From a virus, in the IMG/VR virus record IMGVR_UViG_3300035698_001539, positions 1-21,358 of that record: a DNA stretch of 21,358 nucleotides, one strand, 5' to 3'. This document shows, piece after piece, positions 1 through 20,094 of the stretch; position 1 is the stretch's first letter, and each line of letters opens with the position of its first letter. The notes under the pieces were generated by a model, which ran no database searches, had not been told where the DNA came from, and saw only the letters and a list, made by a program, of their open reading frames with translations. Position numbers and translations under genes: made by a program.

Positions 1-25
1 ATACTATAACCTAACTGGAGATAAT

Positions 26-892
26 ATGGATTATCCTATCGACATACAACTAAAGATGTTCCTTGAGAAGGCTGCCTCTGGAGAACTAACAGAATTTCCT
101 GAGGACTTGATGGAGGAATTTAAAGACTCCTGTGCTGAGTCGCTGAACAGTATCTTCTCTAATAGAGCTAATGAGGACTTCCGTCTGCGTATGTCTAACA
201 TTGGACAAGACCCTCGTAAACTATGGTTAGAGAAACAGTATGGTAGACCTCACCCTACACCTAACTTCCTGTTGAAGATGTTGTATGGTCACCTCATTGA
301 GAAGGTATTCATGACGTTACTCAAAGCAGCCGATGTAAATATAGAAGCTGTTAATGAGAAGGTAACATTAGACCTTGACAAGATTACCCTTAAAGGTGAG
401 TATGATAGTAAGATATCAGGGTACCATTGGGACTTTAAGACAGCATCCCCCTTCTCGTATGATATGAAGTTTGTTAACGCAGACTCCCTACTTGAGGATG
501 ATGCCTTCGGATATGTGGGCCAAGCAGTGGCCTATTCAGAGGCTGATGCTACTCCCTTTGGTGGCTGGTTCGTATTCAATAAGGTGACAGGAGACTTCAA
601 AGTAGTAGATGGTACTGCACTTAATAGACCAGCCCTACGTAAGGAGATTCTAGGTAACCTAAACCATACAGTAGATATTGTTAATGGTGATGAACCAGTA
701 CCCGAATGTACTGGTGTAGTAATGGAGACTCGTTACAAGAAAGAAACAGGCAATAAGATAATTGGGAATAAGTGCAGGTTCTGTGATCATAAAGAGAAGT
801 GCCATCCCACTGTTCAATACATACCTAGTCGTTGTAGTACAGCTTCAACTAAACCTTGGGTATATTATACGGAGATAAACGACGATGCTTAA
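26..892 (+). CDS. PD-(D/E)XK (RecB/Cas4-like) phage exonuclease
   Basis: Probable DNA exonuclease of the RecB/Cas4-like PD-(D/E)XK superfamily, working in phage recombination or host DNA breakdown. Visible in 288 aa are a GHxxE helix motif (G88-H89, E92), an acidic GEYD strand with D127, the DFK core (D136, K138) and the QxxxY helix motif (Q166, Y170). A cysteine cluster near the C-terminus (C228, C250, C253, C259) resembles the Fe-S cluster of Cas4/AddB-type nucleases. However, the usual N-terminal cysteine after the 'SxxG' motif is absent (SNIGQDPRK, 57-65), so a cluster is possible but unproven. The ATG has a TGGAG ribosome site at about 16-20. The 3' end overlaps nrdA by 8 bases, implying translational coupling. 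The fold assignment is confident; the exact substrate and polarity are not readable. Confidence 0.85.
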   Translation: MDYPIDIQLKMFLEKAASGELTEFPEDLMEEFKDSCAESLNSIFSNRANEDFRLRMSNIGQDPRKLWLEKQYGRPHPTPNFLLKMLYGHLIEKVFMTLLKAADVNIEAVNEKVTLDLDKITLKGEYDSKISGYHWDFKTASPFSYDMKFVNADSLLEDDAFGYVGQAVAYSEADATPFGGWFVFNKVTGDFKVVDGTALNRPALRKEILGNLNHTVDIVNGDEPVPECTGVVMETRYKKETGNKIIGNKCRFCDHKEKCHPTVQYIPSRCSTASTKPWVYYTEINDDA

Positions 893-3644
893 TATTGATT
901 ACGATAGAGACTCCCTACTGACTGAGGTAGCACTATCTACCCTACATGACAGGTATCTATTACCAGAGGAGAAAAGCCCACAAGATGCTTTCGCTCGTGC
1001 AAGTAACGCCTATGCAGATGGGGAAGCTCATGCCCAACGAATATACGATGCTGTGTCTAAAGGATGGTTTATGTTCAGCACCCCTATCCTCTCTAATGGT
1101 GGTACTGAGCGTGGTATGCCTATCGCTTGCTTTGGTGGGTACGTGCCTGATAGTAGGGGAGGCATTACGGATCACTACACGGAGAATGCTTGGCTATCCT
1201 CTATGGGTGGCGGTATCGGTGGTTACTGGGGTGATATCCGTGCTGACGGTCAGTCTACTAGTAAGGGCAGCAAGTCTACTGGCAGTATCCCTTTCATAAA
1301 GGTAGTTGATAGTCAGATGTTAGCCTTTAGTCAGGGGAGTACCCGACGTGGTAGCTATGCTGCCTACATGAATGTCTCTCATCCAGAGATTGAAGAGTTC
1401 ATTACTATCCGTAAGCCTACCGGTGGTGATCATAATCGCAAGTCATTGAATCTTAACAATGCAGTGTGTATCCCCGATGTATTTATGGATAAGATTACGG
1501 GTGTTGATCCTGATCCAGCATGGGATCTGATAGACCCTAATAGTTTAGATGTAATCAAGACTGTTGATGCACGTAACCTATGGATGTCTATCCTTGATAC
1601 ACGCTTGGAGACAGGTGAACCGTATATCATGTACAGTGACACAGTGAACGCTGCCCTACCACAGACACAAAAGGACATGGGACTACTAGTACGACAGAGT
1701 AACTTATGCGTATCGGGTGATACTCCTATCTTAACCAAAGAGGGTTATGAAGCTATTGGTGGTCTAGTGAATCAAGAGCTAGAGGTATGGAATGGGCAGC
1801 AGTGGTCTACTACTACTGTTAGGCAGACAGACACTGATGCTACATTAATGATGGTTCAATTTAATGATGGGTCTTCTATCAAATGTACACCCCAGCATAA
1901 GTTCTATATTCAAGAGGAATATGGACAAGAACCTAAATGCTATAGTGCTAGTGAGTTATATGTAGGAGCTAAGCTGGAGAAGTTTGATTTACCTACTTCA
2001 ACTGTTATTAATTATCCACCTATGGACGATGCATACTCTCGGGGATTCTATGCAGGTGATGGTAATAACGGGTATAAATTCTCATGGGTCTACCCTGCTA
2101 AACATACTGTTATACCTAAGTTGGTGGGCACCTTCTCTGAGCCGAACGAGATAGGTCGAATACGTTGGACGCATAAGCAGTGGGAGAAGTTTATTGTACC
2201 CTTTAATGCTGATTGGGATTCACGTATGGAGTTTTTAGCAGGTTTACTAGATGCCGATGGATGTGTCACTGCTAGTGATAACTGTCAGAACATACAGCTA
2301 GTGTCTACTCAACCCCAGTTCTTACAAGAATTGAAGCTTTTATTACAGGAGATGGGCGTACATTGTACTGTGTCATTCCGCAGAAATGCAGGTGATTATA
2401 TGTTACCAGCTAATGACGGATTAGGTAGTAATAAGTTATATTCTTGTCAAGAGTTATGGATGTTAAGTATTAACGGTACTGGAGTACAACGGTTAGTGGA
2501 TGCAGGTAATCTACATACCCGCTGTCAACGATTGGTTATCAGCCCCGATCAGAATCCACAGCGTAACGCTAATAGGTTTGTAACTGTTGTTAACACAGTA
2601 GATAATGTATCAATAGAAGATACCTACTGCTTTACTGAACCCCTACGTAACAGGGGGGTATTCAATGGTGTACTGACTGGAAATTGTAGTGAGATAACCC
2701 TAGCTACTGATGAGTCTCGCACCTTTGTATGTTGCCTATCATCAGTCAACCTAGAGAAGTATGATGAGTGGAAAGATACTACATTGATAGCCGACCTTAC
2801 TAGGTTCCTTGATAACGTATTAACATGGTTTATTGCTAATGCACCTGATGCCCTACATAAGGCAGTATACTCTGCCTCTCGTGAGCGTGCTATTGGTATT
2901 GGTGCTATGGGATTCCACTCCCTACTACAGAAGAGGGGGATACCGTTTGAGTCTGCCCTTGCTACTAGTCTTAACCTCAAGGTATTCGCTGATATGAATG
3001 AGAAGGCTATAGCTGAGTCAGAGAAGCTAGCCTTAGAACGTGGTGAACCTGATGATATGCAGGGGACAGGCCGACGTAACAGTCATCTGTTTGCTATTGC
3101 ACCCAATGCTAGTAGTGGATTGATTGCTGGTACTAGCCCAGGTATTGAACCTTGGGTAGCTAATAAATTTACTCAGAAGACATTGAGTGGTTCCTTTAAC
3201 ATGGAGAATAAGTATCTTAAACTACTACTAGATAAGCATGGTCTTGATACTAAGGATGTATGGAAATCTATTACTGCTAACAAGGGTAGTATTAAACACC
3301 TGACTACTATACCTGAGTACGATAGAGATGTATTCAAGACAGCAGGTGAGATGGACCAACAGTGGTTAGTACAACATGCTGCTGATAGACAACCCTTCAT
3401 CTGTCAGGCTCAAAGCCTTAACCTATTCTTCCCACCTAACGCTAATGGTGAAGTAGATATGTCGGAGGTACACCAATGCCATGTTAACGCATGGAAGAAA
3501 GGGGTTAAGACTCTCTACTATCTACGCTCACAGGCAGTAGCTCGTGTAGAGAACGTGGAGATCAAGGTAGAACGTAAGGAATTGGCTGGTGCAACCATCA
3601 GTCCAGTAAATCAGGAGACCACATGCATGGCATGTGAGTCATAA
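885..3644 (+). CDS. nrdA: Class I ribonucleotide reductase large subunit with in-frame intein
   Basis: Catalytic alpha subunit that reduces ribonucleotides to deoxyribonucleotides, feeding phage replication. The 919-aa product contains a 326-aa intein (residues 275-600), leaving a 593-aa mature enzyme. That is shorter than E. coli NrdA (761 aa) and lacks an obvious N-terminal ATP-cone, so dATP feedback inhibition is probably missing. Conserved parts are a redox cysteine C82 (ACFGGY), the N-L-C-x-E active site (N273-L274, then C601 and E603 after splicing; C601 matches the thiyl-radical C439 of E. coli), and the second redox cysteine at C617. The phosphate-binding PNASSG-type loop, the radical-transfer pair Y878-Y879 and the C-terminal shuttle cysteines C914/C917 are also present. 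All key residues are intact, so the enzyme should be active once spliced. The GGAG ribosome site at 871-874 lies inside the upstream gene. nrdB follows after one intervening gene. Confidence 0.97.
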   Translation: MLNIDYDRDSLLTEVALSTLHDRYLLPEEKSPQDAFARASNAYADGEAHAQRIYDAVSKGWFMFSTPILSNGGTERGMPIACFGGYVPDSRGGITDHYTENAWLSSMGGGIGGYWGDIRADGQSTSKGSKSTGSIPFIKVVDSQMLAFSQGSTRRGSYAAYMNVSHPEIEEFITIRKPTGGDHNRKSLNLNNAVCIPDVFMDKITGVDPDPAWDLIDPNSLDVIKTVDARNLWMSILDTRLETGEPYIMYSDTVNAALPQTQKDMGLLVRQSNLCVSGDTPILTKEGYEAIGGLVNQELEVWNGQQWSTTTVRQTDTDATLMMVQFNDGSSIKCTPQHKFYIQEEYGQEPKCYSASELYVGAKLEKFDLPTSTVINYPPMDDAYSRGFYAGDGNNGYKFSWVYPAKHTVIPKLVGTFSEPNEIGRIRWTHKQWEKFIVPFNADWDSRMEFLAGLLDADGCVTASDNCQNIQLVSTQPQFLQELKLLLQEMGVHCTVSFRRNAGDYMLPANDGLGSNKLYSCQELWMLSINGTGVQRLVDAGNLHTRCQRLVISPDQNPQRNANRFVTVVNTVDNVSIEDTYCFTEPLRNRGVFNGVLTGNCSEITLATDESRTFVCCLSSVNLEKYDEWKDTTLIADLTRFLDNVLTWFIANAPDALHKAVYSASRERAIGIGAMGFHSLLQKRGIPFESALATSLNLKVFADMNEKAIAESEKLALERGEPDDMQGTGRRNSHLFAIAPNASSGLIAGTSPGIEPWVANKFTQKTLSGSFNMENKYLKLLLDKHGLDTKDVWKSITANKGSIKHLTTIPEYDRDVFKTAGEMDQQWLVQHAADRQPFICQAQSLNLFFPPNANGEVDMSEVHQCHVNAWKKGVKTLYYLRSQAVARVENVEIKVERKELAGATISPVNQETTCMACES
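1707..2684 (+). mobile_element. Intein with LAGLIDADG homing endonuclease, inserted in nrdA
   Basis: A 326-residue protein-splicing element. It begins at Cys (block A, CVSGDTPILTKEGY), has block B CTPQHKF with the usual Thr and His, two dodecapeptide homing-endonuclease motifs (GFYAGDG near 388-394, FLAGLLDADG near 454-463), and ends with a block F/G region finishing VLTGN before the +1 Cys of the host protein. The residue before the terminal Asn is Gly instead of the usual His. The insertion lies between L274 and the catalytic radical cysteine, so a functional reductase needs exact excision. The endonuclease motifs look intact, so the element may still be mobile. By hand count its leucines are about 15 of 27 TTA, against about 7 of 52 in the flanking reductase, which suggests recent arrival from another genome. 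Confidence 0.95.
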
Positions 3645-3656
3645 CAGGAGGGTATT

Positions 3657-4490
3657 ATGGTTTATAACTTAAACATAGGGGTTCGTCTTGGCTTTATAGT
3701 AGAGTCTATGCTTGAGAGAATAGCACAGGAGATACATGCTCCAGTGTTCATCTGTGCTGCTACCTGTCTAGATGCTATCCTAGGTACTCCGCAAAGGGTG
3801 ACACCCACCTTTATTATGGAGGACAAAGCTGCCCTTGTTAGGGGGGTAACGGCCTTAGAGTCAATAGAAGATTGTGACGTTCATACACGTGGTAGCTATA
3901 TATGGGATGTGTATCTTCGAGGTATCCTACGGGTACATCTACGGATTGTAGATGATCATATGCCTAAGGATTTCCCTATTGCTGGGGTTGTTCAATTCCT
4001 TTCATTCTCTGAGGTTGGGTACCGAAAGGAGTTTGAGGAAGCCTTAACCCATAGGGTAGTACAGATACCTGAACTCCTTAGTGCAGCCCAATCCTCGTAC
4101 TATAGAGCTATTGTAGATGTACTTGCTATGTATAACGAGGTAGGGGGTTCAGACTCCCCCCGTAAGGTATTGAGTGGGTGTCGTACTAATAGACATATTG
4201 TTAATACAGGACCAAGACCTTTTACTATTAAGGGGTGGGATAACCTTATAGGCTCCAGTGCCTCTGATGTTAGTCCGTCTCAGGATACAGCCCCTTCTGT
4301 TGGGTATCAGGGTACTACCTTCTGGGATGCTGCTCAGCTACCAACGGAGTTCCCCGCTATAGATACCCCTTCATTTGCTACTACTAATTATAGCAGGAAT
4401 GTAGAGAGTGGGGAGAGAGCTATATCGTCTTCATTACAACCTTCCTTAGACCTATATAACCTAGGAGGCAACATTGACATTACTAGATAA
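3657..4490 (+). CDS. Unknown protein encoded between nrdA and nrdB
   Basis: A 277-aa protein I do not recognise. Residues about 1-165 look like a folded alpha/beta domain with a conserved-looking central stretch rich in Asp, Arg and His (EDCDVHTRGSYIWD, then RVHLRIVDD). Residues about 170-277 are Ser/Thr/Pro/Asn-rich and probably flexible. There is no signal peptide, clear membrane segment or cysteine cluster. The ATG has a strong AGGAGGG site at 3648-3653, directly after the nrdA stop. The 3' end overlaps nrdB by 17 bases and contains the nrdB ribosome site, so the two are probably coupled. The position suggests a role near nucleotide metabolism, but this is context only. A nucleotidyltransferase-like fold crossed my mind and could not be supported. 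Confidence 0.85.
   Translation: MVYNLNIGVRLGFIVESMLERIAQEIHAPVFICAATCLDAILGTPQRVTPTFIMEDKAALVRGVTALESIEDCDVHTRGSYIWDVYLRGILRVHLRIVDDHMPKDFPIAGVVQFLSFSEVGYRKEFEEALTHRVVQIPELLSAAQSSYYRAIVDVLAMYNEVGGSDSPRKVLSGCRTNRHIVNTGPRPFTIKGWDNLIGSSASDVSPSQDTAPSVGYQGTTFWDAAQLPTEFPAIDTPSFATTNYSRNVESGERAISSSLQPSLDLYNLGGNIDITR
4463..4476 (+). promoter_or_regulatory. Shine-Dalgarno and TTG start of nrdB
   Basis: AGGAGG at 4463-4468 lies five bases before TTG at 4474. This strong site fixes a non-ATG start for nrdB and lies entirely within the end of the preceding reading frame. It fits translational coupling, with the strong site offsetting the weak start codon. Confidence 0.8.
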
Positions 4491-5481
4491 GAGAGAGTAT
4501 TATAAACCCTTTAATTACCCGTGGGCATATGAAGCATATAAACAACAACAACGTATCCATTGGCTACCTGATGAAGTACCACTACGTGAGGATGTACGGG
4601 ATTGGAACAGGAACCTAGATGAGGGGGAGAAGAACCTCCTTACCCAGATCTTCCGGTTCTTTACTCAAGGGGATGTAGATGTAGCACAAGGCTACCTTCA
4701 TAAGTATATCCCTATCTTCGGACACCAGCCTGAGTTAGCTATGATGCTTAGTAGCTTTGCTAACATGGAGGCTGTGCATGTAGATGCGTATAGTCTACTA
4801 CTTGATACCTTAGGGTTACCTGAGTCAGAGTATCAGGCGTTTAGTAAGTACACAGCTATGGCTAACAAGCATGAGTATCTATCAGATGTTGATACAAGAG
4901 AGATTGTTATTGAGGCAAGACCAGTAGGGGCATCTTTTGCCTATAAGCAGAGGACAGCTAAAGGATTAGCTGTATACTCTGCCTTCACTGAGGGGTTACA
5001 GCTATTCAGTAGCTTTGCTATCCTGCTTAACTTCCCCCGTCATAATAAGATGAAGGGTATGGGGCAGATTGTTACATGGTCTATTCGTGATGAGAGCCTA
5101 CATGTGGAGAGTATGATTAAACTCTTTGAGACATTCATCAACGAGAATCCTGAGATATGGACTGATGACTTTAGAGGTGAGTTGTATCAGGTATGTCGTG
5201 ACATGGTAGACTTAGAGGATGCCTTCATTGATCTAGCCTTTGAACAAGGTGGTATACAGGATATGGAAGCTACTGATGTGAAGCAGTATGTACGATTCAT
5301 TGCAGATAGACGACTACTACAGCTAGGCTTAAAGCCTAACTATGGAGTTAAAGATAATCCCCTACCCTGGATTGATGATATGGTTAGTGGTGTAGAACAT
5401 GCTAACTTCTTCGAGACAAGAGCAACAGAGTACACCCGAGCTAATGGCACAGGGTGGGGTAACATATTCGATAACAACTAA
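4474..5481 (+). CDS. nrdB: Class I ribonucleotide reductase small (radical) subunit
   Basis: Dimetal, tyrosyl-radical beta subunit that partners NrdA. The 335-aa ferritin-like helical protein shows the ligand set of class I R2 proteins: D67 (or D69) in FFTQGDVD, E99 and H102 in the EAVH motif, E173 (FTEG), and E207 with H210 (RDESLH). The radical tyrosine is Y106, four residues after H102, as in E. coli Y122. The spacing from E173 to E207 (34) equals that of E. coli. The start is a TTG at 4474 with a near-perfect AGGAGG at 4463-4468, both inside the preceding gene. No ATG near this position fits as well. The class I type means the host grows with oxygen during infection. Confidence 0.97.
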   Translation: MTLLDKREYYKPFNYPWAYEAYKQQQRIHWLPDEVPLREDVRDWNRNLDEGEKNLLTQIFRFFTQGDVDVAQGYLHKYIPIFGHQPELAMMLSSFANMEAVHVDAYSLLLDTLGLPESEYQAFSKYTAMANKHEYLSDVDTREIVIEARPVGASFAYKQRTAKGLAVYSAFTEGLQLFSSFAILLNFPRHNKMKGMGQIVTWSIRDESLHVESMIKLFETFINENPEIWTDDFRGELYQVCRDMVDLEDAFIDLAFEQGGIQDMEATDVKQYVRFIADRRLLQLGLKPNYGVKDNPLPWIDDMVSGVEHANFFETRATEYTRANGTGWGNIFDNN

Positions 5482-5493
5482 CAGGAGAGACTT

Positions 5494-5772
5494 ATGACTA
5501 ACGTAACTAATATAGACCTAGCAACAACAGATCCTAACGAACGTATGGTAGCCACCTTTGCAGAAGAGGGCATTCAGATCTTATCTATTGCCCTGCTGAC
5601 TGGTGCTACTAGTGGTGTTCGTATTACTAATAACCAATTTGAAATGTTAGCGTTACATTATGGAACCATCAAACACCAAGCATCCAAACTTACTAGCACG
5701 GATAACGAAGGAGCGGTTGAAGCCTCAGACGATACCGAGCAAGAAGAAACAGAAGCTAGAGAAGCAAGCTAA
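5494..5772 (+). CDS. Small acidic protein of unknown function
   Basis: A 92-aa protein, not recognised. Residues about 1-65 could form a small helical domain with a hydrophobic stretch (IQILSIALLTGA, about 27-38). The tail from about 66 on is Glu/Asp/Thr/Ser-rich and likely disordered. The ATG follows a clean AGGAGAG site. It lies 12 bases after nrdB, so it is part of the same operon. No domain, cysteine motif or signal peptide is seen. Confidence 0.75.
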   Translation: MTNVTNIDLATTDPNERMVATFAEEGIQILSIALLTGATSGVRITNNQFEMLALHYGTIKHQASKLTSTDNEGAVEASDDTEQEETEAREAS

Positions 5773-5786
5773 GAAGGAGAAAGATT

Positions 5787-6020
5787 ATGAGTAATACAAA
5801 TTTAATAGAACATATACGTAATCAGATTACTACCCTTGAGCAAGAAGTAGAAGAGTCCTCAATATTAAATGACCCAGACTTTAACATCCAAGACTACTGT
5901 GGTGGTAATTTTGATGATGCTTATGACATGGGGTGTGATGTTGGGAGTACAACTGGGCAATTAGGAGTATACAAGAACCTGCTACGTCTATATACAGACA
6001 ATAATTATAAGGCAGCTTAA
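5787..6020 (+). CDS. Small acidic protein of unknown function
   Basis: A 77-aa acidic protein. The N-terminal 25 residues look like a helix or short coiled coil (EHIRNQITTLEQEVEESS). The middle is rich in Asp, Gly and Cys (DYCGGNFDDAYDMGCDVG, about 36-53). AAGGAGAAAG gives a good ribosome site. Its TAA shares one base with the ATG of the endonuclease I gene (TAATG), which implies coupled translation. It is not recognised. Confidence 0.75.
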   Translation: MSNTNLIEHIRNQITTLEQEVEESSILNDPDFNIQDYCGGNFDDAYDMGCDVGSTTGQLGVYKNLLRLYTDNNYKAA

Positions 6021-6412
6021 TGTCTTACGGCAAGAAGACAGGACGATACCGTAGTATCTACGAGTCTGCTGTCGCCAAAGCAATGCGTACCTTAGGTATC
6101 AAGTTCAAGTATGAGAACATGAAGTTAAAGTATGCAGTCCCAGCAAGGGTAGCGACCTACACTCCCGATTTTGAATTACCTAATGGTATTATTATTGAGT
6201 GTAAAGGTCGCTTCACCCCTGCTGATAGGAAGAAGATGTTGTTTGTTATAGAGTCACACCCTAAGCTAGATATACGTATGCTGTTTCAAAACAGTAAGGT
6301 TAAGATACGTAAAGGTAGTAAGACCAGCTACGCTGATTGGTGCGATAAGAACAATATTGTATGGGCACACGGGATGGTGCCTCAAGCATGGCTTAAAGCT
6401 AAGGGGAGATAA
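6020..6412 (+). CDS. Endonuclease I, Holliday-junction resolvase (T7 gp3 family)
   Basis: Homodimeric junction-resolving nuclease that debranches replicating and recombining phage DNA before packaging. In T7 it also helps degrade host DNA. The 130-aa length is close to that of T7 gp3 (149 aa). The active-site set is complete and spaced exactly as in T7: E15, D50, E60 and K62 here versus E20, D55, E65 and K67. The core reads YTPDF...IIIECKG. A basic stretch (KVKIRKGSK) follows. The ATG overlaps the preceding stop by one base, and the next gene starts two bases after this stop. The assignment is firm. Confidence 0.95.
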   Translation: MSYGKKTGRYRSIYESAVAKAMRTLGIKFKYENMKLKYAVPARVATYTPDFELPNGIIIECKGRFTPADRKKMLFVIESHPKLDIRMLFQNSKVKIRKGSKTSYADWCDKNNIVWAHGMVPQAWLKAKGR

Positions 6413-6414
6413 CG

Positions 6415-7161
6415 ATGAGTGAGATTAAGAAGTTATTCTGGGACATAGAAACTAGTAAGATGACAGTACGTTCATTCAGTCTATACCCAGATTATATATC
6501 ACCAGATGATATTATCAAAGATTGGCATATCATTAGTATTGCCTACAAGTGGGCAGGTAGTGACAAGGTACACGTCCTACGTAAGCGTGGTAAGGACGAT
6601 GACTCTGTTATGATTGCTAAGATGCATAAGGTATTGAGTCAAGCTGACTTACTGATCCATCATAATGGAGATTCATTTGATATGCCTAAGTTCCTATCTC
6701 GTATGATTGAGTTAGGACTACCACCACTACCTAAGATCAAGAGCTTTGATACTCTTAAGGCTGCACGTAGAGCTAAGTTCAGTAGCCGTAAGCTAGACTA
6801 CCTACTCAAGGTACTCTGTGACCACGGTAAGCTAGAGAACCCTAAGGGGTTATGGAACGATGCTACTGATGGGGATAGGGTAGCTATCGATCACATGGTT
6901 AAATACAACAAACAGGACGTAGTGCTACTAGAAGAACTATATGATATCCTATTACCGTACAACCTGATCGCCCATCCTAATGAGAATATGTTTAGTGCTG
7001 ATGGTACTACTGATAACTGTCCTACATGTGGGAGTCCCGATCTAACTAAGCGGGGATTCAATATGACTAAGGTAGCTAAGTATCAACGGTATCAATGTAA
7101 CAGTTGTCATGGTTGGAGTCAGGGAAAGAAGAATGTAGCAGAGGTCATGGAGATACGATGA
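6415..7161 (+). CDS. DEDDy 3'-5' exonuclease with C-terminal zinc ribbon
   Basis: RNase H-fold exonuclease similar to the proofreading domain of family B polymerases, but without a polymerase domain. Motif Exo I is FWDIETS (D10, E12), Exo II is HNGDSFDMP (D89), and Exo III is YNKQDVV (Y164, D168), giving the DEDDy type. After residue 200 comes a zinc ribbon (C202-P-T-C205 ... C228-N-S-C231) probably used for nucleic-acid contact. The 248-aa length fits stand-alone phage exonucleases. It lies directly after endonuclease I, in a DNA-processing block. GGGAGATAACG precedes the ATG. The substrate (DNA or RNA) cannot be read from the sequence. Confidence 0.88.
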   Translation: MSEIKKLFWDIETSKMTVRSFSLYPDYISPDDIIKDWHIISIAYKWAGSDKVHVLRKRGKDDDSVMIAKMHKVLSQADLLIHHNGDSFDMPKFLSRMIELGLPPLPKIKSFDTLKAARRAKFSSRKLDYLLKVLCDHGKLENPKGLWNDATDGDRVAIDHMVKYNKQDVVLLEELYDILLPYNLIAHPNENMFSADGTTDNCPTCGSPDLTKRGFNMTKVAKYQRYQCNSCHGWSQGKKNVAEVMEIR

Positions 7162-7320
7162 AAGCTATATACACAGCCCCTAACGGGGTCACTCCTAGAT
7201 TATCTCAATAGGTATAAGAGGGGTACTAATCTACCAGAGGAATTCTGGGAACTGTTAGAGCAAGAGGTGGGTAATAGGGTAGATGAGTTTAGAGATAAGT
7301 ATACTACTAGACAACACTAG
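7158..7320 (+). pseudogene. Small gene with apparent +1 frameshift (about 53 aa)
   Basis: An ATG at 7158 has an excellent GGAG site at 7149-7152 and overlaps the exonuclease stop (ATGA), but its own frame stops after 17 codons (TAG 7209-7211). The +1 frame is open from 7162 to the TAG at 7318-7320 and looks coding (LDYLNRYKRGTNLPEEFWEL...), yet it contains no suitable early start. Removing one A from the AAA after the ATG would join the two into one 53-residue protein beginning MKLYTQ. This could be a sequencing error in a short homopolymer, a real inactivating mutation, or a translational frameshift. A small GC-rich hairpin (7177-7188) lies just downstream but is too weak to argue for recoding. 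Confidence 0.45.
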
Positions 7321-7351
7321 GAGGTGGGAGTCAGCATACCCAGGCCAGATA

Positions 7352-7360
7352 TGGTATAAT
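7352..7360 (+). promoter_or_regulatory. Extended -10 host sigma70-type promoter
   Basis: TGGTATAAT at 7352-7360 is a perfect extended -10 (TGnTATAAT). The -35 region is poor (about 7331-7337, TCAGCA/CAGCAT), as is usual for extended -10 promoters. Transcription would start near 7367, just before the AGAAGGA ribosome site of the gene at 7385. It lies in one of the few gaps between plus-strand genes and would feed the accessory block. This is from motif reading only. Confidence 0.5.
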
Positions 7361-7384
7361 CGTACGAAACAGAAGGAAAATAAG

Positions 7385-7699
7385 ATGACAGATAACATTG
7401 AAGAGATACTAGAAGAACGTGGTAAGACACACGGTGACTTTAAAGAACATGCCGAGTATACACAACGTATGAAAGACATGATCGTAGAGTCAGAGCAGGG
7501 GGGTATGCAAGTAGATGGAGGGGTAGATACCTCCAATAATATGAACATGTCCCAGACGGAAGCACTAGAGATGATCATGCATAAGATCGGTCGTATCTTA
7601 GCTGGTAGTCCCCACCATAATGATCACTGGGATGACATCGCTGGGTATGCTAAGCTAGGGAGTAAGGCTTGTTTACGGAGTGAACCACATGAAGATTGA
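7385..7699 (+). CDS. DUF6378-like phage protein
   Basis: A 104-aa helical protein matching, as far as I recall, the DUF6378 family of phage proteins. It has an N-terminal ERGKTHGDF motif and a C-terminal conserved block EMIMHKIGRILAG...DHWDDIAGYAKL, with His, Lys, Arg and Asp residues in MazG-like helical spacing. The family has no established activity, and an all-alpha NTP-pyrophosphatase relation is speculation. The frame stays open upstream to 7283, but the ATG at 7385 has AGAAGGA at 7371-7377 and the promoter start near 7367, so 7385 is preferred. The 3' end overlaps the next gene. Confidence 0.8.
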   Translation: MTDNIEEILEERGKTHGDFKEHAEYTQRMKDMIVESEQGGMQVDGGVDTSNNMNMSQTEALEMIMHKIGRILAGSPHHNDHWDDIAGYAKLGSKACLRSEPHED

Positions 7700-7910
7700 A
7701 GAGCTAGTTCCCTACGTGGAGGCCATCACAAAGGTTATAGCATACCGTGAAGCTAAGTATGGTGAGTGGGTGTTTGTTGTACGGTTAGATGATGAACGTG
7801 ATGCACAGATTCGTATCAGACAAGTACCTCGTACTAAGATGGATGAGGCTATCTCAGCAATACACAACGCTATTAAGATGGAACAGGTGGGTAGTAATGC
7901 CATCCATTAG
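7689..7910 (+). CDS. Small protein of unknown function
   Basis: A 73-aa protein, not recognised. It looks alpha/beta: an N-terminal helix (IEELVPYVEAITKVIAYRE), a beta hairpin (EWVFVVRL...AQIRIRQV) and a C-terminal helix (MDEAISAIHNAIKM). This would make a compact single domain. The ATG at 7689 has GGAG at 7677-7680 with good spacing, and is preferred to an in-frame GTG at 7680. Both ends overlap neighbouring genes by about 11-14 bases, typical of this block. Confidence 0.7.
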   Translation: MKIEELVPYVEAITKVIAYREAKYGEWVFVVRLDDERDAQIRIRQVPRTKMDEAISAIHNAIKMEQVGSNAIH

Positions 7911-8259
7911 CAACCTAACAAGAGATGAAGAAGAGGTGGGTAGTATGTTAAAGAAGAAGAAGAAGGTTGTAGATGGTATTGAAGAGGTAGCTATTACTAC
8001 CACTAATATACACTTTGAATATGGGGGTATTAAATATGCTTCTATGAAGGCTGCATTAGAGGATAAGCAGTATAATGAGCTACCCCCCCTTAAGAAGATT
8101 GATCTGGCATTAACTGACTATTGGGGGAGGGCTAGTATGATTAGAGGTAGTGCCTACACTAGAGCAATGAGGCATTCCTGTACCCCTTATGACGCAGAAC
8201 CCCTTTCCAGCTTAGCTGAGGCTACTCTAAAGACTATAGAAAGGATACTAAGAACATGA
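7897..8259 (+). CDS. Protein of unknown function, lysine-rich near N-terminus
   Basis: A 120-aa protein of unknown role. A run of lysines (LKKKKKVV) near residues 18-25 is followed by a short beta/alpha region (IHFEYGGIKYASMKAAL) and C-terminal helices. Two starts are equally good: ATG 7897 overlapping the previous gene, and ATG 7945, which gives 104 aa and begins MLKKKKK. Both are preceded by almost the same string, AGGTGGGTAGT, so the start cannot be decided here. No catalytic motif or membrane segment is seen. Confidence 0.65.
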   Translation: MPSISNLTRDEEEVGSMLKKKKKVVDGIEEVAITTTNIHFEYGGIKYASMKAALEDKQYNELPPLKKIDLALTDYWGRASMIRGSAYTRAMRHSCTPYDAEPLSSLAEATLKTIERILRT

Positions 8260-8414
8260 GCGATTCAATAACTAGCCAAGTTAAAGATATCTGTATCTGG
8301 CTTGAGGACGAAGACCCAACAGGGTTCCAGCACTTAGGGGATGCAGTTACTAAGAGAGATGTGTATCGTATTGTGCAGTACATTAAGAAGATCTTAAAGG
8401 AGAATGACCTATGA
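8256..8414 (+). CDS. Very small unknown protein (52 aa)
   Basis: A 52-aa helical, acidic peptide (MSDSITSQVKDICIWLEDED...). Its ATG at 8256 overlaps the previous stop by four bases (ATGA), its end overlaps the next ATG the same way, and AAGGA lies upstream. The tight double overlap is the main reason to call it real. The function is unknown. Confidence 0.65.
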   Translation: MSDSITSQVKDICIWLEDEDPTGFQHLGDAVTKRDVYRIVQYIKKILKENDL

Positions 8415-8608
8415 CTATGATAGATGAAGTTAAAGATATAACAGTAGCTGTGAAGCGTAAGAAGATTATACCTAAGGTACCTCTCTACCGTGAGTACCGT
8501 GTAGGGTACACTAAACAAGCCACGTATAACCCAGAGAGCTTCCTTAAGTATTTCTCTGAGTATGAGATGATCCCTGATATCCAAGTAGTAAAGGACATGA
8601 TACGATGA
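8411..8608 (+). CDS. Small basic protein of unknown function
   Basis: A 65-aa basic protein with a KRKKIIPKVPLYREYRVGY core (about 16-34). The start ATGA overlaps the preceding stop, and the end overlaps the Fic gene start by four bases. AAGGAG at about 8396-8401 is the ribosome site. It lies directly before the Fic-family gene, so a partner or antitoxin-like role is conceivable. It has no recognisable antitoxin motif, and the Fic protein carries its own inhibitory segment. Confidence 0.7.
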   Translation: MTMIDEVKDITVAVKRKKIIPKVPLYREYRVGYTKQATYNPESFLKYFSEYEMIPDIQVVKDMIR

Positions 8609-9096
8609 CAGGTAGATGGTTAGACACCGTAGAGATGAATGAGTTAATGAACTTTATCATTGAATCCAATAAGATTGAAGGCATACTACGTTACCCTACT
8701 GATAAGGAGATTAAGGAGGCTGGTCGCTTTCTTAGTCTTAAGGAGGTAACAGTAGATGACCTAGTACAGTTCGTATCTGTGTATCAACCTAATGCAGTAC
8801 TACGTGATAACTACAATGTATCTGGAGTTCGAGTAGGTAAGCATATAGCACCTATGAGTAGCCCCGAGATTAAAGTTAACCTCCAACTCTTATTGGATAA
8901 GGTCAATGATTGGGAGTTCTATGGTACTAACAACTCATGGCAGACTCATGTAGAGTATGAGACCCTCCACCCCTTTACTGATGGTAATGGTCGGTCCGGT
9001 AGAATGCTATGGGCATGGCAACAGAGAGATTTAGCCCTAGGTTTCCTACATGCATTCTACTATCAAACATTAGATAACAGTCAGGGAGGGGATTAG
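8605..9096 (+). CDS. Fic-domain enzyme with own inhibitory helix motif
   Basis: Fic-fold protein, a family that usually transfers AMP (or another phosphate-containing group) from a nucleotide to Ser/Thr/Tyr hydroxyls of target proteins. The 163-aa product has the full catalytic motif HPFTDGNGRSGR at 122-133 with catalytic H122, and a flap-like segment near 73-86 (SGVRVGKHIAPMSS). Residues 21-26, SNKIEG, fit the inhibitory (S/T)xxxE(G/N) motif whose Glu blocks productive ATP binding, so this would be a self-inhibited (class II-like) Fic. It is nearly all Fic core with no extra DNA-binding or membrane domain. It overlaps the upstream small gene by four bases. The target is unknown; a host or defence protein is a reasonable inference for a phage. 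Confidence 0.9.
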   Translation: MTGRWLDTVEMNELMNFIIESNKIEGILRYPTDKEIKEAGRFLSLKEVTVDDLVQFVSVYQPNAVLRDNYNVSGVRVGKHIAPMSSPEIKVNLQLLLDKVNDWEFYGTNNSWQTHVEYETLHPFTDGNGRSGRMLWAWQQRDLALGFLHAFYYQTLDNSQGGD

Positions 9097-9097
9097 T

Positions 9098-9175
9098 ATG
9101 GATAGGGTATTACACATTATAAGTATCAAGAACTTCTTAGCAACCATAAAAAAGCCCCCAGTACAGAAGTACTAG
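9098..9175 (+). CDS. Doubtful 25-aa ORF
   Basis: An ATG at 9098 with a purine-rich GGGAGGGG site opens a 25-codon frame (MDRVLHIISIKNF...). Its last third runs through the minus-strand terminator hairpin, so the frame may be accidental. The upstream site may simply be the coding end of the Fic gene. It is listed because the spacing is good and nothing else occupies this strand here. Confidence 0.22.
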   Translation: MDRVLHIISIKNFLATIKKPPVQKY

Positions 9176-9179
9176 AGGC
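9148..9179 (-). terminator. Intrinsic terminator for the minus-strand late operon
   Basis: Read on the minus strand, GCCTCTAGTAC - TTCT - GTACTGGGGGC forms an 11-bp stem (two G-U pairs) with a four-base loop, followed at once by six T (bases 9148-9153 on the plus strand are A). On the plus strand the two wobble pairs become C-A mismatches and no T tract follows, so the element points leftward. It is the only convincing rho-independent terminator I found in the window. It lies about 840 bases past the last lysis gene, beyond three plus-strand genes. Confidence 0.85.
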
Positions 9180-9208
9180 AAGTTACCAGACGGGTGGGGA
9201 ATAGGGAT

Positions 9209-9460
9209 ATGAATAATAAACGATTATGTAAACTATTTACTGAGGCATTCAATAAGACAGATACCATCTCTGTGTTAGATAGTCTGAAGTTTAAGAAGTC
9301 TAGGTATGAGGGGGAGGAGACCTATAAGGTTAGTGGTAAGGTAATTACCTATAATCACCCAGACAAGGACTTTACCTTTAATCTAACTAGGGACTTTAAG
9401 AGAGAACTACTACCAGTATGGGCAAACGGATTAGCAATGGAGTTAGAGAAAGATGAGTGA
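9209..9460 (+). CDS. Small charged protein of unknown function
   Basis: An 83-aa protein rich in Lys, Glu, Asp and Phe. It has an N-terminal helix (RLCKLFTEAF) then likely beta strands (YKVSGKVITYNH, FTFNLTRDF). An in-frame GTG exists at 9194 but lacks a well-placed ribosome site. ATG 9209 follows GGTGGGGAATAGGG and is preferred. The 3' end overlaps the next gene by eight bases. It lies inside the region predicted to be covered by antisense late transcripts. Confidence 0.65.
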   Translation: MNNKRLCKLFTEAFNKTDTISVLDSLKFKKSRYEGEETYKVSGKVITYNHPDKDFTFNLTRDFKRELLPVWANGLAMELEKDE

Positions 9461-9683
9461 TGTAGTGGACTTCTTATCAGCTGAACGTATGGTTTGGTCT
9501 TGCGAGTGTGGGAATCAATCCTACTATATCTATGATAACGGCTCAGTGGAGTGTGTGTTCTGTGAGAGTATTCAGGATGAAGAGGTTACAATGTGTGTAC
9601 CCCGCAAGCTGACACGTATGATGACAGATGAGGAACGTGAACGATTTAATAAAATAGACAAAGAGGTATCTCTAGATGAATAA
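9453..9683 (+). CDS. Small zinc-ribbon protein
   Basis: A 76-aa protein with a four-cysteine ribbon: C17-E-C19 and C34-V-F-C37, separated by a beta-like stretch (YYIYDNGSVE). The spacing fits a small rubredoxin- or zinc-ribbon-type knuckle binding one Zn. The C-terminal part is a charged helix (TDEERERFNKIDKEV). Such small phage ribbons often bind protein or nucleic acid, but the role here is unknown. It overlaps both neighbours by about eight bases. Confidence 0.75.
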   Translation: MSDVVDFLSAERMVWSCECGNQSYYIYDNGSVECVFCESIQDEEVTMCVPRKLTRMMTDEERERFNKIDKEVSLDE

Positions 9684-10029
9684 TACAGAACTGAGACGAG
9701 CAATTGAACAGGAACTACCTAAGGCTAGAAAGCATCCTATGTCTACCTTTGATGTAGAGTTCCTTGGATACATATACCTATCAGCATTATATGATCATCG
9801 TATACTCAATCGTATGCCTCGTGTATTATCTAACATACGACAGCTACCTAGAATTGGAGCTATTGTACTATTCCATAAGCCCCTACTTAGTCCTACTCTA
9901 GCATCTCGTATCCCTAGTGATGGTGTGCCCACTAAGGCTGAGGCTGCTGAGAACTATGAGCTACTATCCCTTGAGGGATTACTCAGTGGTAAGCTCAGAC
10001 AACGAGTAGAGGATGTACTAGCGGGGTGA
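9676..10029 (+). CDS. Unknown protein, last plus-strand gene
   Basis: A 117-aa mostly helical protein, not recognised. It has a mid-protein hydrophobic patch (FLGYIYLSALYD, about 29-40; IGAIVLFHKPLL, about 60-71) but no convincing membrane span. ATG 9676 overlaps the preceding stop. Its last 12 bases overlap the end of the convergent o-spanin gene. No plus-strand terminator follows. Confidence 0.7.
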   Translation: MNNTELRRAIEQELPKARKHPMSTFDVEFLGYIYLSALYDHRILNRMPRVLSNIRQLPRIGAIVLFHKPLLSPTLASRIPSDGVPTKAEAAENYELLSLEGLLSGKLRQRVEDVLAG

Positions 10030-10260
10030 CATGCAATCTCGTATTGTATCTCTCGTAACCTTATAGTCGGCAATGGCTGAGCGGGTAGCTCGATAAGTAC
10101 CCTCTCTCTTCATTACCTTTAGATCGTTCTTCAGTGCGGATTCTTCTACCTTAGTATAGGGTATGAGGACTCCGCATTTGTCGTTAGAAACCGCCGTTGA
10201 ACAACCTGTCAACATCATAGTCAGGATCACTGCGCTTAATAGCCTTTGCCAATGTTTCAT
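10018..10260 (-). CDS. Outer-membrane spanin lipoprotein (Rz1-like)
   Basis: An 80-aa protein with a lipoprotein signal. It has basic residues (MKHWQR), a hydrophobic core (LLSAVILTMM) and the lipobox LTGC with the lipidated Cys at 20. The 60-residue mature part is charged and has two further cysteines (C29, C76), which may allow disulphide linking. It would anchor in the outer membrane inner leaflet and pair with the upstream i-spanin to fuse the membranes in the last lysis step. Its start lies inside the i-spanin gene in another frame, the classic embedded Rz/Rz1 arrangement. It lacks the proline-rich stretch of lambda Rz1. It is the last late gene and overlaps the convergent gene by 12 bases. 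Confidence 0.82.
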   Translation of the reverse strand: MKHWQRLLSAVILTMMLTGCSTAVSNDKCGVLIPYTKVEESALKNDLKVMKREGTYRATRSAIADYKVTRDTIRDCMSPR

Positions 10261-10399
10261 TCTGTCTCTCCAATATGTCTATGGTCTTATCTCTACCTCG
10301 AATGGTGTACTCTAACTTAGCTACACTCTTACTCTGTCTATTGTAGAGATAGGCTAAGGTCAGGAGTCCCAACCCTAGCACTATACTTAGATATAACAT
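10184..10399 (-). CDS. Inner-membrane spanin (Rz-like)
   Basis: A 71-aa protein with one N-terminal membrane segment (about 2-19, YLSIVLGLGLLTLAYLY), then a charged helical part (about 24-55) suited to a periplasmic coiled coil. That is the i-spanin layout, though it is short compared with lambda Rz (153 aa). The first base of its ATG directly follows the holin TAG. Its last 77 bases contain the start of the o-spanin gene. The identification rests on topology, the embedded lipoprotein gene and the lysis-cassette position, not on sequence similarity. Confidence 0.75.
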   Translation of the reverse strand: MLYLSIVLGLGLLTLAYLYNRQSKSVAKLEYTIRGRDKTIDILERQNETLAKAIKRSDPDYDVDRLFNGGF

Positions 10400-10669
10400 C
10401 TATCGTTCTACCTCATCACCTACTGCCTTAGCTTTAAAGACATTCAATGCAGGTAGGTCAATCACTACAGCATAGATCAGGGCAGCCCATGATCCTTTAG
10501 CTGGTGTATTAGTGAGTGATGCAATTGTAGATGCTACTGTTACTACAGCAAATACGATAGGTAGGTATTCACCTACTAGGGGGATGTTCAGCATGAACTC
10601 TAGCACTTGAATCACAGTGTCCGAGTCTACTGGTAGTGATTCCACTACAGTTACTACTTCGTTTTCCAT
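10400..10669 (-). CDS. Probable holin
   Basis: An 89-aa protein with two membrane segments, about 36-54 (YLPIVFAVVTVASTIASL) and about 60-77 (SWAALIYAVVIDLPAL). The connecting turn is short, and charged residues sit at both ends. Size, topology and position between the amidase and the spanins fit a class II holin that opens the inner membrane to release the endolysin. The start overlaps the amidase end by 16 bases. There is no sequence signature that proves it. Confidence 0.75.
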   Translation of the reverse strand: MENEVVTVVESLPVDSDTVIQVLEFMLNIPLVGEYLPIVFAVVTVASTIASLTNTPAKGSWAALIYAVVIDLPALNVFKAKAVGDEVER

Positions 10670-11169
10670 TTCATTCTTCCTTTATCGTTTAGGTTTAATA
10701 CCACCCTGTAATCAAATACAGGACAGGTCTTATTCGCTACTTCTCTATGTCCTCTAAAGATGATAGCTCCTCCGTATGAGGTATCAATAGCCCTACAAAG
10801 CATTCTAAGCGCCTCTAGGCTATCATCTGTGAACTCTGCTAACCCACCTACACAGATAGCTATGCTACCCCTGTTGTGGCCCTTCTGAGCAGCTGGTACT
10901 GTATTGATGGGTCTACCGTTGTGGATAGTACCATCCTTACTGATATAGAAGTTGTATCCTATATCGTTAAAGCCCCGCTTCTTATGCCACCTACGAATGG
11001 TGCGTACGTTATCATGCTTAGGGTTATCAGTATCAGAACAATGAATGAACACTGTACGTACCACACGGTTAGGTTTCTTAAATTCGTATACTACCTCTTC
11101 TATTGGGGGTAGTGGTGTATGGGTTGGACTATTGATCCAACTCAACACCTTCATCATCCATTCTGGCAT
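10654..11169 (-). CDS. N-acetylmuramoyl-L-alanine amidase endolysin (T7 lysozyme type)
   Basis: Zinc amidase cutting the amide bond between N-acetylmuramic acid and the peptide stem of peptidoglycan. In 171 aa the zinc ligands are H43, H141 and C149, and the catalytic residues are Y72 and K147. The spacings match T7 lysozyme exactly (H17, Y46, H122, K128, C130). About 26 extra residues precede the domain; they lack a signal peptide or a long hydrophobic anchor, so export depends on the holin. The ATG has AAGGA upstream and lies 41 bases inside the end of the ejection-protein gene. T7 lysozyme also inhibits T7 RNA polymerase; whether this one does is unknown. Confidence 0.95.
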   Translation of the reverse strand: MPEWMMKVLSWINSPTHTPLPPIEEVVYEFKKPNRVVRTVFIHCSDTDNPKHDNVRTIRRWHKKRGFNDIGYNFYISKDGTIHNGRPINTVPAAQKGHNRGSIAICVGGLAEFTDDSLEALRMLCRAIDTSYGGAIIFRGHREVANKTCPVFDYRVVLNLNDKGRMKWKTK

Positions 11170-18567: not shown

Positions 18568-20094
18568 CTAGCTTCCTCCTGGAAATAATCCTATAATTGT
18601 AGAGATAATGTCAGCATAACCGCCACCTCCCGCTTTCTCTGCATCAAAGTTTGCACTTTGTGTGCCCTCTATTAATGCGTATTCATGTTTAATAGCTGCT
18701 AGAGCTAGGTTATAATCACGAGTAGTAGATGACTCACTAGCAGTAAATGCCCATGAGGCTTCATCACGTAGGGATTGCCATAGTGCATTAAGACTATAAT
18801 TACTTAAGTTAAAGGCATTCTGTACGTTGAGTTGGTTAGCTGCATTGATAGCAGCGGTGTTACTTGTATTGATCTGTCTACGCCATTGGGTGTTAGATTG
18901 GTCTACTACTTGTCCCATACTAGCATTGAACTGGTCTGTCTGGAAGTCCATGTTAGCATTGAACTGCTCAACTGCTGTACGCTGTTGTTCATTAAAGATA
19001 TCAGTAGAGACATCCATCTGACCTTGAGCTAGCTCCATCTGATTAAGTTGGGCTGCATTAAACTGCTCTAAGGCTGTAACACGGTTAGCATTCTGGTTAG
19101 CAATGTTGGATACTAACTCAGCTTGGAACATACTGATCTGTTGACCACTAGCTGCATTGAATTGATTAGCTGCATTGATAGCTGCTTGATCGGAGAGTAG
19201 AGCTTGCTGTCTATTCTGTGTATTGACCATAGCTGCTTGTTGTTCGTTAGCTAGGTTCTGCATATCCATCTGGAAGTATGTGCTGGCATCGTGACTAGCT
19301 ATCTGTATGGCTGATTGCTGTACTGCCTCTGTGATTGCACCTACACCAATAGAGCTGTTACCTAGGCCTCGTGAGGCCATAGCATCGGTTGCTACACGAA
19401 CTGCACCTTGTGCCCATTCTGCAATAGCTCCGTTATCTGTGTCGTTGTATAGCTTAGTAAGCTGGCCCACCATCGTACCTAGCTCGGATACCTGACCCTG
19501 AGCTGCTGTCATCTGTGCTTCAGTACCGGCTACGGTAGCTGCACTGTAGTTGGCAGGAGTAGCGATGTATTGCTGTCCGGTGTTAGGGTTTACTACGATG
19601 TTAGAACCATCAGCTTGGGCTACATTCATCGTGGGGTTGCCTACTGCATTGGCATCACTTATACCTGTATTAGAGATAGGGGTATAGGTCATTAGCTCAC
19701 CATTCTGAGCTGTCATAGTAAAGGGTACCATCTCAGCACCATTAGGTAATGAGGGATCATTGACGTTGTTAGCTAGGTGGGCATTGATAGTAGTAGGAGC
19801 GTTAACAGTACCAGTAGTCCCTGTGGTAGCAGTGGTAGCCGTAGTAGTAGTGCCTGAGGACGCTGTAGCGGTAGGGGTACCTGCCCCAGCAGATAACCAT
19901 GCAGCACCTTGTGAGGCTGACATGTTATTACGTAGTGCTTGGAGTTCTGCTGCTGCTTGAGGGTTGGATGCTGCTATCTGACTAGCAACACTATTACCAC
20001 TTGCAGCTTCACCGTAGGTAAGACCTGTAATACCATACTTAGCTGCAACATTAGCTGCTAGTTGTTGGGCGTTGTTAGTTGGGTTAGTTGTCAT
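18568..20094 (-). CDS. Gln/Asn/Ala-rich internal virion protein with hendecad repeats
   Basis: A 508-aa protein, probably an ejection-type or tail-internal protein by position and composition. Residues 1-70 are Ala-rich. A Thr/Ser/Gly linker (about 70-105) leads to a small beta-like domain (about 115-185). From about 195 to 460 it is helical and very rich in Gln, Asn and Ala. Within it, a (N/E/D)Q(F)NA motif recurs every 11 residues: F312, F323, F345, F367, F378, F389, then S400, S411, L422, Y433 in the same register. Such an 11-residue period fits a hendecad helical bundle. The C-terminus ends in a short hydrophobic segment (YADIISTIIGLFPGG, about 493-507) that might touch membrane. The start has AAGGGGAT upstream. 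Confidence 0.8.
   Translation of the reverse strand: MTTNPTNNAQQLAANVAAKYGITGLTYGEAASGNSVASQIAASNPQAAAELQALRNNMSASQGAAWLSAGAGTPTATASSGTTTTATTATTGTTGTVNAPTTINAHLANNVNDPSLPNGAEMVPFTMTAQNGELMTYTPISNTGISDANAVGNPTMNVAQADGSNIVVNPNTGQQYIATPANYSAATVAGTEAQMTAAQGQVSELGTMVGQLTKLYNDTDNGAIAEWAQGAVRVATDAMASRGLGNSSIGVGAITEAVQQSAIQIASHDASTYFQMDMQNLANEQQAAMVNTQNRQQALLSDQAAINAANQFNAASGQQISMFQAELVSNIANQNANRVTALEQFNAAQLNQMELAQGQMDVSTDIFNEQQRTAVEQFNANMDFQTDQFNASMGQVVDQSNTQWRRQINTSNTAAINAANQLNVQNAFNLSNYSLNALWQSLRDEASWAFTASESSTTRDYNLALAAIKHEYALIEGTQSANFDAEKAGGGGYADIISTIIGLFPGGS

Follow-up and report, generated by a model that had tools for sequence, protein, structure and literature searches.

Convergent early and late gene blocks are common in phages, and HMO-2011-type phages form an abundant marine group; to our knowledge, how the converging transcription fronts are kept apart has rarely been examined. 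The window analysed here, a 21,358-base IMG/VR virus record that is a fragment of a marine phage, raises this question directly: where do transcripts of its minus-strand block end, when the genes of that block stop at 10018 and the strongest terminator for their direction lies well inside the opposing block?

Plus-strand genes span positions 1 to 10029 (a Cas4-like exonuclease, the large and small subunits of a class I ribonucleotide reductase, an endonuclease I-like protein, a polymerase exonuclease subunit, Fic, and three small genes, e1, e2, and e3), and minus-strand genes span 10018 to the right end (o-spanin, i-spanin, a holin-like protein, amidase, a 1,813-aa virion protein with a transglycosylase domain, and structural proteins). 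We call the plus block "early" and the minus block "late", labels that we infer from gene content. HMO-2011-type phages have a metabolism block on the plus strand that converges on a structural block on the minus strand; the window has homologues of their genes in the same order and on the same strands, and as judged from gene order and protein matches it comes from an HMO-2011-like marine phage. Searches with the structural protein (18568-20094) and the Cas4-like gene led to HMO-2011, Roseobacter CRP phages, and Pelagibacter HTVC phages; against homologues in the group, the Cas4-like exonuclease matched at 28-40%, structural protein g18568 at ~37-44%, g17674 at 25-32%, and the endonuclease at ~50%. 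The type itself is defined by a DNA polymerase with a partial DnaJ domain together with ten core genes (PMC9038755); the polymerase, helicase, primase, portal, capsid, and terminase genes fall outside the fragment, and a separate exonuclease-subunit gene is present in the window. In addition to that, the large ribonucleotide reductase subunit (885-3644) carries an intein (TIGR01445 match above cut-off at residues 275-342, with the exteins resuming near residue 600), and an extended -10 promoter-like sequence, TGGTATAAT, lies at 7352-7360 on the plus strand, upstream of the genes from ~7384, with two such matches in the window against 1.6 expected by chance.

The features at and around the junction are the following:

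8605-9096, plus strand: Fic/DOC-family gene (fic; PF02661, E 1.8e-06; motif HPFTDGNGR), last plus-strand gene before the putative late terminator
9148-9179, minus strand: putative late terminator, leftward only
9180-10017, minus strand: predicted 3' extension of the late RNA, 838 nt, antisense to e1, e2, and most of e3, with no intrinsic terminator inside
9209-9460, plus strand: e1, orphan gene, 83 aa, immediately downstream of the terminator
9453-9683, plus strand: e2, orphan gene, 76 aa, with a CxC...CxxC zinc-ribbon-like pattern read by eye
9676-10029, plus strand: e3, orphan gene, 117 aa
10018-10260, minus strand: probable o-spanin, last late gene (lipoprotein signal LTGC; weak match to an Rz-like spanin PHROG, E 0.04)
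10135-10176, plus strand: candidate early terminator within the o-spanin gene
10184-10399, minus strand: i-spanin, lysis cassette
10400-10669, minus strand: holin-like gene, lysis cassette
10654-11169, minus strand: amidase, lysis cassette

The stops of o-spanin (10018) and e3 (10029) overlap by 12 nt, and a 112-nt gap between fic and e1 holds the site at 9148-9179. On the minus strand the latter reads GCCTCTAGTAC-TTCT-GTACTGGGGGC, then TTTTTT (on the plus strand, an A-run at 9148-9153 and the stem at 9154-9179), giving an 11-bp stem with two G-U pairs, a TTCT loop, and a T6 tail. A sequence-only reading had described a late-operon terminator of exactly this structure at exactly this place. 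In a scan of the window for hairpins followed by a U-tail it was the strongest leftward site (dG -17.7); in the same scan, a shuffled whole window, both strands included, held on average 0.32 hairpins at or below -16 and 0.08 at or below -18. Folding of the minus-strand RNA of 9140-9185 gave -18.9 kcal/mol (z -4.95), which none of 200 shuffles equalled. Its d'Aubenton-Carafa score (d-score) was 34.4 leftward and -77 rightward, in agreement with the earlier claim that the site works leftward only; the low rightward value arises partly because the two G-U pairs turn into A-C mismatches on the other strand, where dG weakens to -8.9. The next-best minus-strand site in the window scored -45. With a stable G+C-rich hairpin, a U-tract directly after it, and values better than chance, the site is almost certainly a genuine intrinsic terminator. 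A 25-codon plus-strand ORF (9099-9176) with a good Shine-Dalgarno sequence (GGAGGGGATTAGT-ATG) begins right after fic and stops within the hairpin; it may have arisen by chance.

The distance from the late stop to this terminator is 839 nt. Between 9180 and 10260 the scan found no leftward U-tailed hairpin of at least -6 kcal/mol in strength, and nowhere else in the window is there an intrinsic terminator that could serve the 11-kb late block. The earlier statement that the late genes lack a terminator at 10018 therefore holds for intrinsic terminators, with Rho sites being possible, and the proposal that the late-operon terminator is buried in the opposing block is supported. That the late unit is served by 9148-9179 appears to us very probable.

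The second-best terminator candidate of the whole window points the other way and lies inside the o-spanin gene, at 10135-10176, 106 nt past the end of e3; all others score -30 or lower. The sequence-only reading had overlooked this hairpin, as well as the recurrence of crossed terminators in the phage group described below. Its hairpin is strong (-21.9 kcal/mol, and -14.5 on the other strand), and its poor tail, TTTGTCGTTA, accounts for a d-score of -10.7. Synonymous shuffling of the o-spanin gene produced no hairpin plus tail as strong in 400 trials, and one of -15 or better in a single trial. The two best hairpins of the window are thus each located within the opposing block, 955 nt apart, with e1-e3 between them; the late, one-way member of the pair is clear, and the early member combines a strong hairpin with a weak tail. 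Tentatively, and at somewhat less than even chance, the o-spanin hairpin might end the early RNA. If it is the early terminator, each unit would run into the opposing block before ending, and transcription would cover ~1 kb on both strands.

To place this arrangement in context, we scanned 44 further junctions of relatives (12 phage records and 32 IMG/VR contigs). Hairpins with a d-score of at least 0 were nearly confined to junctions, with a background of 7 in 486 kb outside them. Approximately half of the junctions had a strong terminator 0-222 nt past the stop of the block it served; the clear late terminators lay within this same distance of the late stop, beside or just within the last early gene, which they overlapped in CRP-212, CRP-3, and HTVC033P. 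Three designs were seen. In HMO-2011, CRP-1, CRP-345, CRP-207, and many contigs, as well as in the more distant CHOED and MQM1, a short gap holds one hairpin, which often works both ways. HTVC033P, CRP-235, CRP-212, CRP-3, and contig L201 have two one-way hairpins 15-66 nt apart in crossed order, with the late one lying on the early side. The third design, mostly in AT-rich, pelagiphage-like contigs, has no strong hairpin at all. Crossed pairs at the early/late junction of HMO-2011-type phages include the following:

L134, 6174-6285: crossed pair
L135, 5796-5900: crossed pair
L136, 5683-5794: crossed pair
L101, 7151-7217: crossed pair
L201, 11450-11523: crossed pair

A further 18 contigs (e.g., L223, L218, and L306) had a crossed pair 58-81 nt apart, with late arms (GCCTCT...GGGGGC-T6) in common with the window. 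We searched 217 loci with a pattern built on the arms and tail of the window's terminator, and only the window itself (L081) and CRP-235 matched. In IMG/VR the same pattern was found in 113 contigs, 19 of which also matched other window proteins, and 18 of these 19 had a crossed pair. Uncrossed, tail-to-tail pairs were absent from the junctions examined, with the caveat that many of these contigs are near copies of one another. The shared arm sequence may be convergent, because nothing in the other 94 contigs matched a protein of the window. The junction designs were clustered on a Cas4-like protein tree (8 changes, versus 26.0 in shuffles), and the window occupied a long, unsure branch outside the crossed-terminator clades, near HTVC103P and HTVC115P, both of which have no strong junction terminator. 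As the tree places the window elsewhere and most pattern-bearing contigs are other phages, we do not claim homology between its terminator and that of CRP-235; in design and place, the window's late terminator looks the same as those of the crossed relatives, and shared ancestry is at most a possible reason.

Neither a DNA search nor searches with e1, e2, e3, or the 1,813-aa virion protein found a close relative of the window, and the relatives found with the amidase were unrelated phages with only that gene in common. Buried hairpins in the late direction in L158 (15670-15699, 742 nt beyond, d-score 0.4) and L207 (15021-15045, 749 nt, d-score 11.3) were set aside, with ~0.8 chance matches expected over all junctions. 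Separately, contigs without a junction terminator shared a conserved late-direction hairpin, TGTTGGGGC...CACCCCAACA-TTTAT, in or beside the Cas4-like gene:

L104, 9689-9723: Cas4-like-gene hairpin
L105, 10353-10387: Cas4-like-gene hairpin
L108, 10118-10152: Cas4-like-gene hairpin
L110, 15078-15112: Cas4-like-gene hairpin
L112, 11634-11668: Cas4-like-gene hairpin
L125, 10979-11013: Cas4-like-gene hairpin

Coding constraint or a far-displaced late terminator could lie behind this hairpin; in view of its coding sequence and weak tail, we did not retain it as the late terminator of the AT-rich relatives.

Taken together, we favour as the probable reading that 9148-9179 is the intrinsic terminator of the minus-strand late unit, in a crossed junction that has been stretched to ~955 nt, most simply by gene insertion. 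In such a junction, the late polymerase would come to its own one-way terminator only after passing the early stop point, and the converse would hold for the early polymerase; in the window, the usual spacing of 15-81 nt would have been extended to take in e1-e3, with the late terminator left on the far side. The simplest history would be that genes entered between the old late terminator and the late block. An insertion between the lysis cassette and its old terminator had also been offered by the sequence-only reading, and this part of it fits best with the relatives, where late terminators stay close to the late stop and homologues of e1-e3 are absent; the searches above brought up no close relative lacking e1-e3. 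Homologues of e1-e3 above chance were likewise not found in the phage collection, the 217 loci checked, or Pfam and PHROGs; e1 had no Pfam match over its cut-off, no PHROG match, and no phage tblastn match. We judged the hit of e1 to a Cas13 model in PADLOC (15.4 bits) to be spurious. The coding composition of the three genes is not foreign-looking, which counts against insertion, and we would give an insertion origin of the gap even chances. The lysis cassette may belong to the same growth of the junction, because in HMO-2011 and CRP-235 the late block ends with the large virion protein gene.

Other readings of the hairpin have to be weighed against the stretched crossed junction. As a class, terminator-like patterns were hardly more frequent in the window than in shuffles (10 versus 9.2 expected), as would suit a chance palindrome or artefact; this particular site, however, stands far above both the shuffles and the background of the relatives, which at ~0.007 such hairpins per kb per strand makes a chance origin unlikely, and its arms and tail are common to the junction terminators of relatives, so that we give this reading next to no weight. 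Slightly better placed, and still very improbable, is a terminator that serves not the late operon but an independent antisense or small RNA begun leftward within 9180-9400. A weak promoter-like match on the minus strand (9252-9223) could start such an RNA, but it agrees at only 9 of 12 positions, promoter-like sites are no more numerous than expected (38 in 20 kb versus 44.7), and the whole late block would then be deprived of its one intrinsic terminator in the window.

The remaining alternatives concern what happens to the late RNA. A late polymerase leaving o-spanin would run ~840 nt antisense to e1-e3 and halt at 9148, and this extension follows from the anatomy of the junction unless Rho or a head-on polymerase collision stops the polymerase earlier. 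Late RNA might normally fall short of 9148 in this manner, through Rho acting on untranslated C-rich antisense RNA or through collision near the junction, with the hairpin as a backstop that keeps antisense transcription away from the nucleotide-metabolism genes to its left. Rho might load on the stretch 9440-9680, whose antisense RNA holds much C and little G: its excess of C over G places it at the 99.4th percentile of the window's antisense stretches, and the G/C ratios of e1 and e2 are the highest of all window genes. Head-on RNA polymerase collision is reported to end convergent genes in E. coli (PMC13082048), and convergent transcripts in Rickettsia often have no site-specific ends (PMC3027695). 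Against this, C-richness is absent from the initial ~330 nt of the extension, and so strong a terminator would hardly be needed; we regard such premature termination as possible but distinctly the less likely course, and on balance expect a sizeable share of late RNA to reach 9148. A timed antisense switch, or excludon, would go further: late RNA running through e1-e3 would shut them down, whether by forming duplexes or by polymerase interference, with early RNA in turn repressing o-spanin until late. The two best hairpins do bracket e1-e3 from within the opposing blocks, and one of the excludon types described consists of convergent genes whose 3' ends overlap over a long distance (PMC7154746). 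At the same time, e1-e3 have no recognised function or conservation in Pfam, PHROGs, or the 217 loci, the arrangement was seen in one genome fragment only, and the overlap in crossed-terminator relatives is ~100 nt, hardly a switch. We therefore find such a switch unlikely, and antisense regulation of e1-e3 equally doubtful as something that would matter to the phage. A shade less likely still is the general form of the idea, in which crossed, buried terminators would act as a built-in switch, with late RNA silencing the genes between, early RNA holding o-spanin low until late, and the gap serving as a landing site for early-on/late-off cargo genes. Under the stretched crossed junction, if e1-e3 were silenced, or o-spanin by early RNA, this would be incidental or a secondary use.

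Junctions of this phage group thus come in three designs that cluster on the tree, and the crossed design would force RNA ends to overlap, in one genome over a stretch of three genes. The window is a place where one could test whether phage timing is under the control of antisense 3' ends, or whether these are merely a consequence of gene insertion. In a limited search of open-access literature, we found no description of crossed one-way pairs as a recurrent phage junction design, or of their stretching over three genes. The nearest counterparts are the crossed pairs of CRP-235, CRP-212, and CRP-3 (Roseobacter) and HTVC033P (Pelagibacter), which share with the window the same junction, the crossed order, and one-way hairpins (and, in CRP-235, the same late arms and T6 tail), but have a spacing of 18-66 nt rather than ~955 nt, no genes between, and another late gene at the junction. 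Overlapping convergent transcripts and bidirectional terminators are already known, also in phages with convergent blocks such as phage tf, where a single bidirectional terminator separates the blocks (PMC3517423). As in HMO-2011, CRP-345, and phage tf, both units of the window would end at one convergent junction; those phages, however, use one two-way hairpin in a short gap, as opposed to two one-way hairpins in opposing blocks. In E. coli, bidirectional termination with head-on RNA polymerase collision (Ju 2019 and Wang 2023, as cited in PMC13082048) likewise gives convergent genes overlapping RNA 3' ends, but there a central hairpin sets the collision point, whereas the hairpins of the window lie far apart. 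Finally, type b excludons, in which convergent genes have overlapping 3' ends (PMC7154746), resemble the window in having two convergent units with no terminator between them and a long 3' extension over the opposing genes, which in the window is predicted; unlike them, the window has a strong one-way terminator past three genes, and mutual repression in it is only hypothetical.
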